Origin: a virus
Virus record (IMG/VR): IMGVR_UViG_3300038825_000684
Location: 1-34,568 of that record
DNA length: 34,568 nucleotides
Reading direction: 5' to 3' (one strand)
This document shows positions 1,368 to 28,792 of the stretch, piece after piece. Below the pieces are notes generated by a model, which ran no database searches, was not told the origin of the DNA, and saw only the letters and a program-made list of their open reading frames with translations. The position numbers and the translations under genes were made by a program. Position 1 is the stretch's first letter. Every line of letters begins with the position of its first letter.

Positions 1368-1607
1368 ATGACTGAATTATTACTTAAGCTATTAGGAAAG
1401 CAAGAAGTTAAACGTATTCTTAATTTATGGATTAAAGATCAAATTAATGTATGCTTAGAACAAAATGCGCGCATTCAATTAGATAGTACCATATGGATGG
1501 AACATTATATTACAACTTCTAAAAAATTCAATGAATGCCCAGAGTATTTAATTGATGAACCTTTAGAGGTGGATGATCTTTTTAATTTTATTGGAGGAAA
1601 AATATAA
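1368..1607 (+). CDS. Hypothetical protein, first gene of plus-strand unit
   Basis: A 79-residue protein of unknown function. An AGAGAG ribosome site lies 5 to 10 bases upstream of the ATG. The N-terminal half is helical and leucine-rich with basic residues; the C-terminal half is acidic (EPLEVDDLF). No motif is recognised. The TAA stop shares its last base with the ATG of the GP88 gene (TAATG), so the two are translationally coupled. Codon use is AT-rich, like the rest of this unit. Confidence 0.7.
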   Translation: MTELLLKLLGKQEVKRILNLWIKDQINVCLEQNARIQLDSTIWMEHYITTSKKFNECPEYLIDEPLEVDDLFNFIGGKI

Positions 1608-2302
1608 TGTCATTAATCAAACTACTAACCGCGCCGCATGGCAGCACTAAAACCAATAAGAGTATGAAATACGGTTTTGCGAATTTCATAATGTATTTAT
1701 CACCATTTAAAAAAAGCGGCTGGAACACGTGCGCCGCGGCTACTAAAGGTTGTATTGCATCGTGTTTAGACGAAAGCGGCCGCGGTAATTGGACAGAAAA
1801 AAACGGTAAAAAAAATCCAATACATGAAGCGCGATTGAAGCGTACGCAATTCTTTTTTAATGACCGCGGCGCGTTTCTTGAACAGTTAGAGAGAGAGATT
1901 AAAAACGGTATTAAATGGGCATTAAAACGCGATTTAAAACCCGTTTTTAGGTTAAATGGTACTAGCGATTTGAGATGGGAACAATACGGTATAATGAAAA
2001 AATTTAATGACATTCAATTTTATGATTATACCAAACTATGGAACCGCCGCGATCTACCCGCTAATTATCATTTAACGTTTAGCCGCGCAGAATCTAACCA
2101 AAAAGAAACATTAAACGCGGTTGTAAATGGGTTAAATATTGCGGCCGTGTTTAGACATGAGTTACCAAAAGAATATTTAGGATTAAAGGTAATAAACGGC
2201 GATAAACACGATTTACGATTTTTAGATCCAAAACGCGCTTGTATTGGTTTGATTGCTAAAGGCAAGGCTAAACATGATCAAAGCGGTTTTGTACTTAACT
2301 AA
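1607..2302 (+). CDS. GP88-family (Gene product 88) protein
   Basis: A 231-residue protein that matches, from memory of the family, the phage and plasmid family called Gene product 88. Visible hallmarks are the N-terminal SPFKKSGWNTC segment, a three-cysteine cluster (C42, C49, C53) followed by a GRG (58-60), then SDLRWE (about 120), FYDYTK (about 138), a YHLTFSRAE segment, and a C-terminal GDKHDLRFLDP followed by GLIAKGKAKHDQSGFV. The cysteine cluster suggests a metal or cluster site, but no biochemical function is established for the family that I know of. It is the best-recognised gene of the plus-strand unit, expressed opposite to nearly all other phage genes. It seems full length. Confidence 0.8.
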   Translation: MSLIKLLTAPHGSTKTNKSMKYGFANFIMYLSPFKKSGWNTCAAATKGCIASCLDESGRGNWTEKNGKKNPIHEARLKRTQFFFNDRGAFLEQLEREIKNGIKWALKRDLKPVFRLNGTSDLRWEQYGIMKKFNDIQFYDYTKLWNRRDLPANYHLTFSRAESNQKETLNAVVNGLNIAAVFRHELPKEYLGLKVINGDKHDLRFLDPKRACIGLIAKGKAKHDQSGFVLN

Positions 2303-2327: not shown

Positions 2328-2708
2328 ATGTATACAGCATTTAAAACATGGTTAACAGCAACCACGCAACTTAGTAAAAAATCAATAAACAACTATTGCG
2401 GCGGTCTTAACAAAATAACCCGCGATTTAATCGATGAGAACATGATCCAAAATAGCTTGGATGAAATTGAGCAAGTTGAGCAAGTTGAGCAGATCAAAGC
2501 GGAATATTTTGGAATTCCTAAATATAAAGAGCAGGACCAGCGCGGACGGAATATGTATAACGCGGCCTTTAATAAATATATTTATTTTAGAACAGAAACC
2601 GCGAAAAAAGAAAGCTGGTTTGATGACAAAATAGAGGTTTTAAGCGATAATCCAGAAACCGCAGAAACTTTAAAAAACATGCTTAAAAAAGGTTTTTTAA
2701 ATTCATAG
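2328..2708 (+). CDS. Protein with orphan N-terminal-type domain seen in restriction enzymes
   Basis: A 126-residue protein with a strong AGAGAGG ribosome site. Its first 30 residues (FKTWLTATTQLSKKSINNY) and the block around residue 63 onward (YFGIPKYKEQDQRGRNMYNA, then AFNKYIYF) resemble the helical domain found in front of HNH and McrB-type restriction nucleases; here it stands alone with no catalytic part. A 9-base tandem repeat gives EQVEQVEQ near residues 45-52. The family link is from memory and tentative. The stop codon (2706-2708) lies in stem I of the hammerhead ribozyme, so the mRNA would be cut about 60 bases after the stop. Confidence 0.6.
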   Translation: MYTAFKTWLTATTQLSKKSINNYCGGLNKITRDLIDENMIQNSLDEIEQVEQVEQIKAEYFGIPKYKEQDQRGRNMYNAAFNKYIYFRTETAKKESWFDDKIEVLSDNPETAETLKNMLKKGFLNS

Positions 2709-2778
2709 CCATACTGATGAGCGCGATTAGTTATCGCGCGAAATATCGCCGCATTAGCGGCGGTATATATGGAAACTA
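2706..2778 (+). ncRNA. Type I hammerhead self-cleaving ribozyme
   Basis: All core elements are present in order. Stem I 5' strand CCATA (2709-2713); core CTGATGA (2714-2720); stem II GCGCGAT/ATCGCGC (2721-2727 with 2733-2739, loop TAGTT); core GAAA (2740-2743); stem III of 10 pairs (2743-2752 with 2757-2766, one U-G wobble, loop ATTA), including the conserved A15.1-U16.1 pair (2743-2766); cleavage base H17 is A2767; stem I 3' strand TATGG (2768-2772) pairs perfectly with CCATA. A bulge AAA (2773-2775) and three more pairs (TAG 2706-2708 with CTA 2776-2778) extend stem I, a usual place for contact with loop II. The first pair of stem II is the preferred G-C. Termini are in stem I, so it is type I. 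It lies in sense orientation between two genes, and predicted cleavage after 2767 would free a 5'-OH end 25 bases before the next ATG. Confidence 0.93.
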
Positions 2779-2792
2779 AAAGAGGTATTAAA

Positions 2793-3080
2793 ATGACATG
2801 TCATATACACGAAAAAATCAATGATGACTGCGTTTTATGCGTTCCTAAAATACAATTAACGAAACTAATTAGATTCAAATTTCAGTTTAGTTTATGCGAA
2901 AATATTGATGATTTAATTAATGAGCTTGATGAAATAAAAAAAGAGCTTAATTATTTAAAATCAATAAATGCGGAATATGATCAAGGCGAAATAGACTGGC
3001 ATTTTTTCGACATTGTAACCAATGATAAAAACCTAATAAAAGAGCTTCAAAATATAGGTTTTTATGATCCGAATGAATAA
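2793..3080 (+). CDS. Hypothetical protein downstream of hammerhead ribozyme
   Basis: A 95-residue acidic protein. ATG at 2793 is chosen over ATG at 2769 because AGAGGT lies at 2781-2786, and the upstream ATG is inside the ribozyme. The N-terminus has closely spaced C and H residues (MTCHIHEKINDDCVLC), a possible small metal site, followed by helices rich in Leu, Asp and Glu. No family is recognised. After ribozyme cleavage its mRNA would begin at 2768 and keep this ribosome site. Confidence 0.65.
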   Translation: MTCHIHEKINDDCVLCVPKIQLTKLIRFKFQFSLCENIDDLINELDEIKKELNYLKSINAEYDQGEIDWHFFDIVTNDKNLIKELQNIGFYDPNE

Positions 3081-3118: not shown

Positions 3119-3193
3119 ATGATAACTAAAATACTAACCGCATACGTCAAAATATGCGCGGTAATATGGCTAATATTATGGCTTTTGAGTTAA
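3119..3193 (+). CDS. Tiny membrane peptide (24 aa)
   Basis: ATG at 3119 follows an AGAGAG ribosome site (about 3104-3110). The product is 24 residues: a short basic start (MITK) followed by a single hydrophobic stretch with two tryptophans, consistent with one membrane helix. Too short for family recognition. It overlaps the next tiny frame by 28 bases. Expressed peptides of this size are common in phage accessory units, but only the ribosome site and hydrophobicity support this call. Confidence 0.45.
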   Translation: MITKILTAYVKICAVIWLILWLLS

Positions 3194-3266: not shown

Positions 3267-3292
3267 AACCCGCATTTTATGCGGGTTTTTTT
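3267..3292 (+). terminator. Intrinsic terminator of plus-strand unit
   Basis: A perfect 9-bp inverted repeat AACCCGCAT / ATGCGGGTT (3267-3275 with 3279-3287), loop TTT, followed by a run of seven T (3286-3292). It lies 23 bases after the last plus-strand frame. The minus side is followed only by TTAATTTG, so termination there would be weaker. Confidence 0.92.
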
Positions 3293-24868: not shown

Positions 24869-27800
24869 TTAATTATCTATGTATGTAAATGTTAGCATAA
24901 GATTATTACTTGATACATCTATATCATTATATGTTAATTCTGTTCTATCTCCAGTTGCATTTACATAATATAAATAAATGTCATCCGTAGATTCTAACAA
25001 TAGTCCATAAATACCAGTATTATTAGAAAAATTAGTTTTTTTAGCTGATACTGGAATCATATAGTATGTAGTTGATGCTATTGCGAAAGGTACTCCAGAA
25101 ATAACAACTTGGTCTGTTCCACCTCCATCATCGCTAAAAGTAAAAAAAGTTGATACAGTTACTGTGTTTCCTATTTTTGTATAGCTATTCTGGAAAGTTG
25201 CAGAAATGGTTGGAGCGTGTCCACTTGCACTAACAAAAGCTGGTGTCCAAGTGCCTTCTTCGTAATCATCAAGTACATTTGCTCCACCATCAGCAACTTG
25301 ACTTGCTGGAAATTGAATACCAGCAGTATGAACTAAAGCACCACTATCTTGTGCCATATAAACAGCAGTTACATCTGCATTACCAAGTGTTACTGAGTTA
25401 TGGTCTTGTCCAACTGCATCTGCACCAATAACAATACAATTACCAGCATCTGTAGCATTTGCTTCTGCACTGTGTCCAATTACAACATTGTCAACTCCAG
25501 CAATAATAGCATCTCCAGCCCCAGAACCGATTGCAACATTGTTCCTTCCTGAAGTAACAGCACCTAATGCCTCATAACCAACTGCGGTATTATTATCTGC
25601 GGTAGCAGTTAAAGCTCCATCAAGAGCCGCATATCCAATTGCTATATTTTGAGAGGCTCCAGCATTTGTACCAGACATAGCAGAATTACCAATCGCTACA
25701 TTTCTTTTATTTTCATCTGATGTAGATGCTCCACCTAATGCTCCATAACCAAGAGCAACATTGTCCTCACCTGTAGTTAGTTCATCCATTGCTTGGTATC
25801 CTACAGCCGTATTTCTTGCACCAGTTGTCAACGCTCCTAAAGCATCTGTACCAATCGCTACTGCTCCAGTTTGACTATTATTTGAAACTGCATCCATTGC
25901 ATTAGTTCCAATAGCCACATTACCTGAAAGTGTTCCAGTTCCACCTTGCAGTGCATTTTTACCAATAATTACATTATCGTGAGATGCGTCATTATTTATA
26001 TAATAACCAGCTTGACTTCCGATGACTGTATTAAAATCTTCTCCACCATCAGCAGTATACATTGCTTCGTATCCAAGAGTTGTATTTCTATTGCCAGTAG
26101 TTTGAGATGCTTGAGACTGATAACCAACAGCTACATTCATTGTTCCAGTTGTTAATGCCCCAAGTGAATTTCTCCCTATAGCAATCGTACCTGTTTGAGC
26201 ATTATCATTTGTAGCATCTAATGCAAAAGCTCCAATAGCAATATTATCATTTACAGTTATAGGATTACCAGCAAATGCTCCACCAAGTAAGGCTTGCTGT
26301 CCAATTGCAATATTATTATCAGCAGTACCTATAGAACCTTCATTTAAACTTGACATTGATTGATACCCAATAGCCACATTTCCAGTTTCGCCAAATGCGG
26401 ATGAACTAAGTGCGGAGCTACCAACAGATACATTACCACCACCTGTTTTAATAGCTTTTAAAGAATTATAACCCACAGCAGTATTATTGCTGTGATTTTC
26501 ATTATCTACACCAAATCCAGCACCATAGCCTACATATGTGTTATAATCCCCAGTCCTATTTCCAAAACCAGCAAAAGTTCCAAAGCCAGTATTTTTTTCT
26601 CCAGTTGTATTTTTATTTCCAGATGCGTGTCCGAAAAAAGCGTTGTCTTCACCACCAGATGCTATATTTAAACCAGTATAAGCACCAAATAAAGTATTAC
26701 CAGTTGTGCCATCTGCACCACCAGTACCACCACTATCATTATTAGAAAGTGAGATTCTGGAGTTGGTGTCAAGTTTAAATTTTAAATCACCAGCAGTAGC
26801 TGTAGTATTTGCACCAACATAAAAGTTTATAAGAGTTGCTGAGTTCCAATCACCATTACCACCACCAAGAAGAAGTGTATTAGCTGTAGATGAAGAAGAA
26901 TATCCAATTAGTCTTATGCTTTCTTCAGCATTGGTGTAATGAACACCAGTTATACCACCACTTTTTGACGTTGAATTTGTTCTTGTCCTGTTAGCATCAT
27001 TATCAGCACCAATGGTAATCCCATCAGCTTGATAGCTTTGCACATCTAAGTGAGTTTTGGGAGTTGAGCCTATACCAATATTTCCAGAACTATTAATGTG
27101 CATTCTTGTACTTGGATTTGCACCAGTACCGCCTGTTCCAAAATACAAATCACCTCTTGGGTCTACCGATATAAAAGAACTTTCGTCACTGGTATTGAAT
27201 CTGGTATTAGCACCAGATGTATCAACCTGACAGTTAGCACCAATCATTACTCCAATACCTACATTACTTGCTTGTCGAACACCTTGTATTATGGCATCAG
27301 TATCAACAACTGCATCTTGCCATCTAATACCTTGTCCTCCTGTCGTGTAAACGTCTGGCTCAAATGCTATATCTGCTTCTGGGCTGTTTGTCCCGATACC
27401 AACTCGCTTGTCTCCAGTAAGAGTTAAAACTTCATTAGCATTAGTTGTGCTACCATCGCTAATAAAAAATCTTGTTTTACAATCAGAAGCACTTCCACCA
27501 GCCCATTCGTTAGTAATTTTATTTATGTATTGGTCACTACCAAAAGTAAATCTTAATTCAGTATTATTTCCATCTTGCAAATGCAAAGTAGCGTCTGGAC
27601 TTGTTGATCCAATACCTACATTTCCTGAACCATCTATTCGCATTTTTTCAGACGTACTACCAACTCTAAAAATTATATTACCACCAGTACCTGAAGTACC
27701 TCTATCTGCACTAATGTAAAGGTCATCTGATGATGCAAAAATATGATGGTATTTACTGTCGTCTGAATCTGTAAATCTTAATACTGGTTCTGCTGATTGT

Positions 27801-28792
27801 AGATGCAGTAATTCTGATGGTGAGTCAGTTCCAATACCAAGCCGACCATTATTATCCAGCCTCATTTTTTCAGAAAATGTGCTTCCATCTGTCCTTGTCC
27901 AAAATTGCAATGCACCTGTTTCACTTCCACTACTTACATTTGTTGCTAGACCAGATATTCTTGAATAAGTAGTTGCATTTCCATCACTATCATCACCACC
28001 AAAATTTATTATTCCTACTAAATCATCATTAGCAGTTGATGCAGACTGGTGATAAAAATCTAATTGAGCCCCACCAGAACCATCATTTGTTGATTCTAAT
28101 TTTAATAAATCACCTGTTCCTTTGATGTGCACTTTTGTATCTGGGCTTGTCTCGCCTATACCCATAGACCCTTGCTCAAAAATATACTCTGAAAAACCAA
28201 GAGTAAGTGGAACATTGGCATTTCTTGCATCATTAGTACCCATTAAGTGTATTTTAGAACTAACACTTGTCACCTCAAGATTTTGGTCAGTACCAACATT
28301 TATGTGGAGTTTACTTGAAGGTGATACGCCTAGACCAAGATTACCAGAAAAAGTAGCATTAGAATCACCATTAATGGTGAGGATGTTTGTAGAGTCTGCC
28401 CTGACTTGAAATGCAAGGTCATCTGCGGTAGTTCCAGCAATTTTAACTAATGCCCCATAACCACCAGTATCTGTATTTTCAAACCTCCCAGCATAATCAT
28501 TATTAACAGCACCTTTAACTTCAAGTATTGCAGTTCCTACTCTTGCTCCTAAATTTGCTCTTGAATTAGTTGTATCGACAACAAATACATCTGTTCCGTC
28601 AGCTTTTTCTACTAAAAATGCAGAAGTATCTGTGACTTTAATTTGTGATGTGCCTTCTATTATCTCATCAAAGGATAGTGAGCCACCGCCATCTACCTGG
28701 AGATCACCATTAATGACCAAGTCTCCTGTAATGGTTCCGCCAGAAGAGATTTGCGCTGATGTGTTGCTAATTAAATTTTTAAAGGATGCCAT
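24869..28792 (-). CDS. Tail fibre with VGIG and YadA-like head repeats
   Basis: A 1307-residue fibre protein. The N-terminal 30 residues begin with SFKNLISNTSAQISSGG. About six copies of a GNVGIGTxSPxxxLHI-type repeat occupy residues about 140-590. Residues about 690-1210 hold about 20 degenerate YadA/Hep_Hag-type repeats (IAIG..AL...TTG..NTAVGY), which form a trimeric beta-roll. The C-terminus (EGTWTPAFVSASGHAPTISA and on) is a globular end seen in other phage fibres. It is the probable receptor-binding fibre. Its base composition differs from its neighbours: only one GCGC in 3.9 kb, at the 5' end, and heavy use of ACC/GGT-type codons. Domain exchange is likely. Confidence 0.88.
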   Translation of the reverse strand: MASFKNLISNTSAQISSGGTITGDLVINGDLQVDGGGSLSFDEIIEGTSQIKVTDTSAFLVEKADGTDVFVVDTTNSRANLGARVGTAILEVKGAVNNDYAGRFENTDTGGYGALVKIAGTTADDLAFQVRADSTNILTINGDSNATFSGNLGLGVSPSSKLHINVGTDQNLEVTSVSSKIHLMGTNDARNANVPLTLGFSEYIFEQGSMGIGETSPDTKVHIKGTGDLLKLESTNDGSGGAQLDFYHQSASTANDDLVGIINFGGDDSDGNATTYSRISGLATNVSSGSETGALQFWTRTDGSTFSEKMRLDNNGRLGIGTDSPSELLHLQSAEPVLRFTDSDDSKYHHIFASSDDLYISADRGTSGTGGNIIFRVGSTSEKMRIDGSGNVGIGSTSPDATLHLQDGNNTELRFTFGSDQYINKITNEWAGGSASDCKTRFFISDGSTTNANEVLTLTGDKRVGIGTNSPEADIAFEPDVYTTGGQGIRWQDAVVDTDAIIQGVRQASNVGIGVMIGANCQVDTSGANTRFNTSDESSFISVDPRGDLYFGTGGTGANPSTRMHINSSGNIGIGSTPKTHLDVQSYQADGITIGADNDANRTRTNSTSKSGGITGVHYTNAEESIRLIGYSSSSTANTLLLGGGNGDWNSATLINFYVGANTTATAGDLKFKLDTNSRISLSNNDSGGTGGADGTTGNTLFGAYTGLNIASGGEDNAFFGHASGNKNTTGEKNTGFGTFAGFGNRTGDYNTYVGYGAGFGVDNENHSNNTAVGYNSLKAIKTGGGNVSVGSSALSSSAFGETGNVAIGYQSMSSLNEGSIGTADNNIAIGQQALLGGAFAGNPITVNDNIAIGAFALDATNDNAQTGTIAIGRNSLGALTTGTMNVAVGYQSQASQTTGNRNTTLGYEAMYTADGGEDFNTVIGSQAGYYINNDASHDNVIIGKNALQGGTGTLSGNVAIGTNAMDAVSNNSQTGAVAIGTDALGALTTGARNTAVGYQAMDELTTGEDNVALGYGALGGASTSDENKRNVAIGNSAMSGTNAGASQNIAIGYAALDGALTATADNNTAVGYEALGAVTSGRNNVAIGSGAGDAIIAGVDNVVIGHSAEANATDAGNCIVIGADAVGQDHNSVTLGNADVTAVYMAQDSGALVHTAGIQFPASQVADGGANVLDDYEEGTWTPAFVSASGHAPTISATFQNSYTKIGNTVTVSTFFTFSDDGGGTDQVVISGVPFAIASTTYYMIPVSAKKTNFSNNTGIYGLLLESTDDIYLYYVNATGDRTELTYNDIDVSSNNLMLTFTYIDN

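Follow-up and report, generated by a model that had tools for sequence, protein, structure and literature searches.

A type I hammerhead ribozyme with a putative pseudoknot between loop II and its 3' tail, located between exchangeable genes of a phage operon

The window, that is, the whole stretch of 34,568 nucleotides of viral DNA that was analysed, contains a real, unannotated type I hammerhead ribozyme at positions 2709-2772 of the plus strand. Very probably, it is a functional ribozyme that carries a pseudoknot between loop II and its 3' tail and cuts the mRNA of a plus-strand operon after A2767, thereby punctuating the operon. The first-pass annotation had proposed that a type I hammerhead separates two genes of a single operon, and this is borne out by structure, a chance control and covariation. 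That annotation did not include the pseudoknot, the swapping of genes on either side of the ribozyme or the earlier literature.

The ribozyme and its operon

The operon and the ribozyme have the following features, with coordinates of the window.

1285-1312, plus: promoter-like TTGACA-16-TATATT, possible operon start (11 of 12 consensus bases)
1368-1607, plus: 79-aa ORF, first gene of the operon (no family match)
1607-2302, plus: 231-aa GP88-family protein (PF17338, E 4e-41)
2328-2708, plus: 126-aa ORF directly 5' of the ribozyme; its stop codon TAG (2706-2708) abuts stem I
2709-2772, plus: minimal type I hammerhead ribozyme (core bases, three stems, fold, shuffles, covariation)
2709-2713, plus: stem I, 5' strand CCATA; partner TATGG at 2768-2772
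2714-2720, plus: core C3-A9 (CTGATGA); position 7 is the sole variable one in relatives
2721-2727 with 2733-2739, plus: stem II, 7 bp, G-C first; loop II UAGUU at 2728-2732
2740-2743, plus: core G12 A13 A14 (GAA, 2740-2742) and A15.1
2743-2752 with 2757-2766, plus: stem III, 10 bp with one U-G, loop 2753-2756; first pair A2743-U2766
2767, plus: H17, predicted cut 3' of A2767; relatives have A, C or U here, never G
2774-2778, plus: 3' tail AACUA, candidate partner of loop II 2728-2732 (pseudoknot)
2780-2785, plus: Shine-Dalgarno AAGAGG, 13 nt into the predicted 3' product
2793-3080, plus: 95-aa ORF, first gene of the predicted 3' product
3267-3287, plus: intrinsic-terminator-like site, operon end (hairpin, then T run)

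The hammerhead core (C3 U4 G5 A6 N7 G8 A9 and G12 A13 A14) is present in the window, surrounded by three stems and accompanied by the A15.1-U16.1 pair. Stem I is open and stems II and III are closed by loops, which is the type I arrangement. The core, the stems and A2767 all lie where the first-pass annotation had placed them. The pair next to the core, G10.1-C11.1, is present in the window; some relatives have G-U, U-U or A-C instead. The triplet at the predicted cleavage site is AUA and differs from the common GUC.

The minimum free energy fold of 2705-2777 is exactly the proposed hammerhead (-30.9 kcal/mol, z -4.79), and none of 200 shuffles equalled it. A descriptor consisting of the core CUGANGA, GAAA, three stems and H17 other than G was applied to both strands. 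It gave 22 stem pairs in the window versus at most 19 among 10,609 dinucleotide shuffles of the window; with no shuffled window matching the stem score, the earlier judgement that a chance occurrence is very unlikely holds. Stem I could be extended in the window by UAG/CUA (2706-2708 with 2776-2778). This extension was rejected, because it is not conserved and competes with the conserved pseudoknot.

The stop codon of the 126-aa ORF ends 5 nt before C3, and 20 nt separate stem I from the ATG of the 95-aa gene. This gene could also begin in frame at 2769, but the start at 2793 was preferred because the earlier one does not stay in frame in every relative. The anatomy fits the first-pass description of a cut that closely follows a stop codon and precedes a ribosome site by 13 bases, the cut itself being predicted. 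Promoter-like sites numbered 12 versus 11.6 expected in shuffles, so that the site at 1285-1312 is weak evidence.

Covariation and gene exchange

Related viral contigs were reached via the neighbouring proteins and the primase of the window phage. The ribozyme is found at the same junction in the window and ten related phage contigs, and also in an apparently unrelated contig, L013. A covariance model built from six copies scores 72-101 bits in the window and the ten related loci, and 55 bits in L013. It recovered five relatives that the first descriptor scan had missed owing to mismatches in stem II. No second strong copy was detected by this model in any record searched whole, and the scans of the window revealed no further ribozyme. 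The window phage has a single copy, and its effect would be at most one cut. Among the relatives with a locus that was read, L021 and L033 lack the ribozyme. The searches yielded no closely related cultured phage. A pattern scan of genome contigs gave nine matches, none plausible as a hammerhead, and two of the four loci of the first viral pattern scan (L006 and L009) were discarded as chance matches inside coding sequence.

In an alignment of twelve sequences fitted to the structure, 93.9% of the cells are paired and two-sided changes occur in 14 of the 26 pairs. The covariation score is 0.383, whereas shuffles give 0.138 and slid partners no more than 0.080. An unfitted MAFFT alignment of six sequences agrees (two-sided changes in 8 of 27 pairs; score 0.309 versus 0.146), and RNAalifold recovers the stems unaided from the fitted alignment. 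The changes are two-sided at five of the seven pairs of stem II and at seven of the nine modelled pairs of stem III. Stem I is invariant in all twelve aligned sequences and provides no covariation evidence in lineage I; its identity in L013 is not independent, because that contig came from a pattern demanding this very stem I. Across the twelve sequences, the core is constant except at position 7, where U or A occurs. Nine sequences have A at H17, two have C, one has U and none has G, in keeping with the NUH rule. The first pair of stem II is weak (U-U or A-C) in some lineage I relatives, and therefore the copies need not be equally active. Judged by the aligned sequences, these changes show selection at the RNA level for the hammerhead fold. 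The comparison with relatives that had been suggested earlier thus yielded stems that are preserved, with covariation in stems II and III.

Loop II (UAGUU, 2728-2732) is complementary to AACUA (2774-2778) just 3' of stem I. As a pairing, this is what distinguishes a pseudoknotted hammerhead, in which loop II pairs with the strand beside stem I. In the twelve-sequence alignment, 90% of the cells of this helix are paired. The pair A2729-U2777 is G-C in L015 and L017 and G-U in L012; within lineage I, this one pair has changed on both sides. One position of the helix is disrupted in L020 and L023, and the helix is not formed in L013. The alignment supports the presence of this putative pseudoknot in the lineage of the window, with some covariation. 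The GUC-type set, examined for a loop II-tail pseudoknot, gave no support for one.

The genes around the ribozyme differ among the relatives. Clustering of the operon proteins into families (F numbers) gave the following pairs, upstream/downstream of the ribozyme.

Window, L014: F7/F8
L012: F9/F8
L017: F2/F5
L010: F6/F5
L011, L015: F16/F17
L023: F19/F5
L022: F9/F5
L020: F19/F30
L050: F9/F31

Homology between phages begins or ends at the edge of the ribozyme. For example, the window and L011 have in common an isolated island of 73 bp (window 2709-2781, 92%) with unrelated genes on both sides. As read from these contigs, the flanking genes have been swapped between relatives and the ribozyme has been kept, which suggests that the phages cut one long message into gene messages.

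In a sister lineage, the primase of which is about 60% identical, the same operon contains GUC-type hammerheads. In four of its five contigs two ribozymes bracket a gene, and what is bracketed behind F2 is F6, F22 with F6, or F35; L024 has one ribozyme and lacks the bracketed gene. The stems of this lineage all differ in sequence, and the fold is the same. Relatives of the small genes F2 and F6 in distant phages likewise lie between two hammerheads (L163, 516-1130; L075, 1657-2316). It is possible that F2 and F6 are ribozyme-associated gene families.

Other phage hammerheads and the Rfam models

In 14 of 19 copies, 5-9 nt lie between the end of the upstream stop codon and C3. In L014, the stop codon has been shifted by a frameshift to 40 nt upstream of C3, and the ribozyme is still kept. 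A GUC-type hammerhead pattern was found in at least 120 viral stretches; the reversed pattern, in one of its two end variants, had no viral match. Among the matches listed, an upstream ORF runs in the same direction in 131 of 138 usable copies, versus 39 on the opposite strand, and both neighbours are present in 120 of the 138. The stop codon lies between -10 and +14 nt of C3 in 100 of these 131 copies, a count to which the motif itself contributes, because its TAA and TGA account for part of the stops at 0, +4 and +14. Stops at -14 to -5, which are not derived from the motif, account for 56 of the 131 among the matches listed. The next ATG follows stem I at a median distance of 22 nt in the 138 usable copies among the matches listed. 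The stop/start anatomy of the window copy fits that of most of these 138 other phage hammerheads.

Hammerheads are frequent in phage contigs, at times with two to four in series within a few kilobases; examples among the matches listed are L063, L066, L086, L095, L098, L123 and others. GP88-family genes (PF17338) occur near hammerheads in several phages that otherwise differ (window 1607-2302, L069, L072, L083, L120, L154, L161), which may reflect no more than the frequency of these genes.

The first-pass annotation had proposed a search with the Rfam hammerhead models, an absence of matches being counted against the ribozyme. At the gathering score the window has no match to any family, nor have the 23 related loci or the 15 loci picked by the hammerhead pattern. 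The best match of the window copy is below threshold, to RAGATH-1-hammerhead (RF03152; 17 bits, E 2, cut-off 56.3), and a sister-lineage copy reaches 28.8 bits (E 0.004) with this model. To RF00163, membership of which is assigned by a score above the gathering cut-off, the window copy gave no match. It is below the cut-offs of RF00163 and RF03152, and is therefore not filed under either family. Yet the same models miss canonical hammerheads. In L063, four consecutive hammerheads with the canonical core score 25-30 bits to Hammerhead_1, below its cut-off of 34, with E values of 5e-5 to 2e-3 in a 1.5-kb search. The absence of an Rfam match at threshold is discounted as counter-evidence because canonical copies are missed too. 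The Rfam gathering thresholds hide many phage hammerheads: those tested were missed.

The window copy has in common with the type I hammerhead (RF00163) the CUGANGA and GAAA core, the A15.1-U16.1 pair, an NUH triplet, an open stem I and closed stems II and III. It differs in its score below threshold, a stem I of 5 bp, long stems II and III and the AUA triplet. RAGATH-1 (RF03152) is the best sub-threshold Rfam match of both the window copy and a sister-lineage copy, the core and stem III being aligned, whereas the 5' part of the model is unmatched.

Hammerheads between prophage genes and pseudoknotted hammerheads are already known (PMC3088659). Pseudoknots have been reported for all three hammerhead types, as have several ribozymes between small changing prophage genes (Perreault et al. 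2011, PMC3088659). In the same work, a U10.1-U11.1 mismatch was described, a long polycistronic RNA with tandem bacterial hammerheads was cleaved in vitro, and hammerheads of A. tumefaciens were also cleaved when expressed in E. coli. Its authors suggested that phage transcripts are processed into operon- or gene-length mRNAs. In contrast to that study, in the main text of which the term 'stop codon' is absent, the present analysis measures how genes are swapped around a conserved ribozyme, as well as the stop/start geometry. The most useful new points are the persistence of the ribozyme amid gene change, this geometry, for which no priority is claimed, and the covarying pseudoknot of the lineage.

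Proposed function and alternatives

What hammerheads do in phages and in prokaryotes is a question that the field has yet to answer (PMC6155905). We infer that the ribozyme of the window would self-cleave in the cell after A2767 of the plus-strand phage operon mRNA. The upstream message, with the 79-aa, GP88 and 126-aa genes, would end 59 nt past the stop codon in a 2',3'-cyclic phosphate, its 3' end being formed by the two compact hairpins of the ribozyme. The downstream message would begin with a 5'-OH and a leader of 25 nt containing the ribosome site. The stability and the expression of the two halves could thus be separate. The genes of the operon are often exchanged, and punctuation by the ribozyme may give each block of genes message ends of its own. 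The geometry, with the stop at stem I and the start about 22 nt after stem I, directly predicts the message ends. Moreover, the locus is a natural experiment, in which close relatives have the same operon with or without the ribozyme, in one or two copies and with different flanking genes.

A broader proposal, put forward tentatively and with considerable doubt, is that type I hammerheads abutting stop codons are a general, modular punctuation of phage mRNA, a portable joint between interchangeable accessory genes with cutting timed by the terminating ribosome, used by many phages and missed by current RNA annotation. If so, each newly acquired accessory gene would gain its own processed message ends.

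It is rather unlikely, but conceivable, that the ribozyme is a translation-coupled switch. A terminating ribosome covers about the next 10 nt; one ending on the upstream gene would thus cover stem I and the CUGA box, and cleavage would occur only when translation of that gene is low or finished. The stop codon does abut or overlap stem I in most copies. This adjacency, however, may merely reflect compact packing, and L014 retains the ribozyme despite its frameshifted stop codon, 40 nt from C3. Such a switch would be a refinement of operon punctuation by the ribozyme, not a replacement for it.

The homology limits at the ribozyme edge and the 73-bp island amid unrelated genes would also be expected of a DNA joint, that is, a short conserved boundary for cassette exchange by homologous recombination in which the RNA fold is incidental or a passenger. 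L024 looks like the loss of a gene and a ribozyme by recombination between ribozymes, or the reverse gain. However, a joint would keep sequence, not pairing; the pairing is under selection, with the two-sided changes noted above, and the sister lineage keeps the fold with other stem sequences. As a full account this is improbable, although the roles of DNA joint and ribozyme can coexist.

Hammerheads elsewhere serve circular RNA elements (PMC6155905), and the similar ribozyme in the apparently unrelated L013 suggests that the element may move. That the window copy is a degenerate remnant of such a circular-RNA or mobile element, of no use to the phage, is nevertheless very improbable in view of the compensatory evolution, the conserved core and the strict position and strand relative to genes; the scans of the window also revealed no second ribozyme with which to make a circle. 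Lastly, two strong GC hairpins behind a stop codon might suggest an intrinsic terminator, or another pair of hairpins mimicking a hammerhead by chance, but there is no T run 3' of stem III, the terminator-like site comes only further on (3267-3287), and the shuffles, covariation and invariant core in effect refute it.

Apart from the ribozyme, some minor features of the window phage may be recorded. A 24-aa ORF (MITKILTAYVKICAVIWLILWLLS) near the end of the operon (3119-3193) is kept with few changes in L033 and L021. In the operons of this phage group, a linker like AAAAAGAGAGGTTAAA-ATG connects many of the genes, so that KKRG forms the C-terminus of several short proteins. The linker is also a second short stretch of homology shared by genes that are not otherwise related. 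At its two ends (1-130 and the final bases to 34568) the window encodes an overlapping part of the terminase; the record therefore seems to carry a direct terminal repeat and could be a complete, circular genome. At 24869-28792 a protein of 1307 aa with many NVAIG / NTAVGYxA-like repeats is encoded, perhaps a tail fibre or adhesin.
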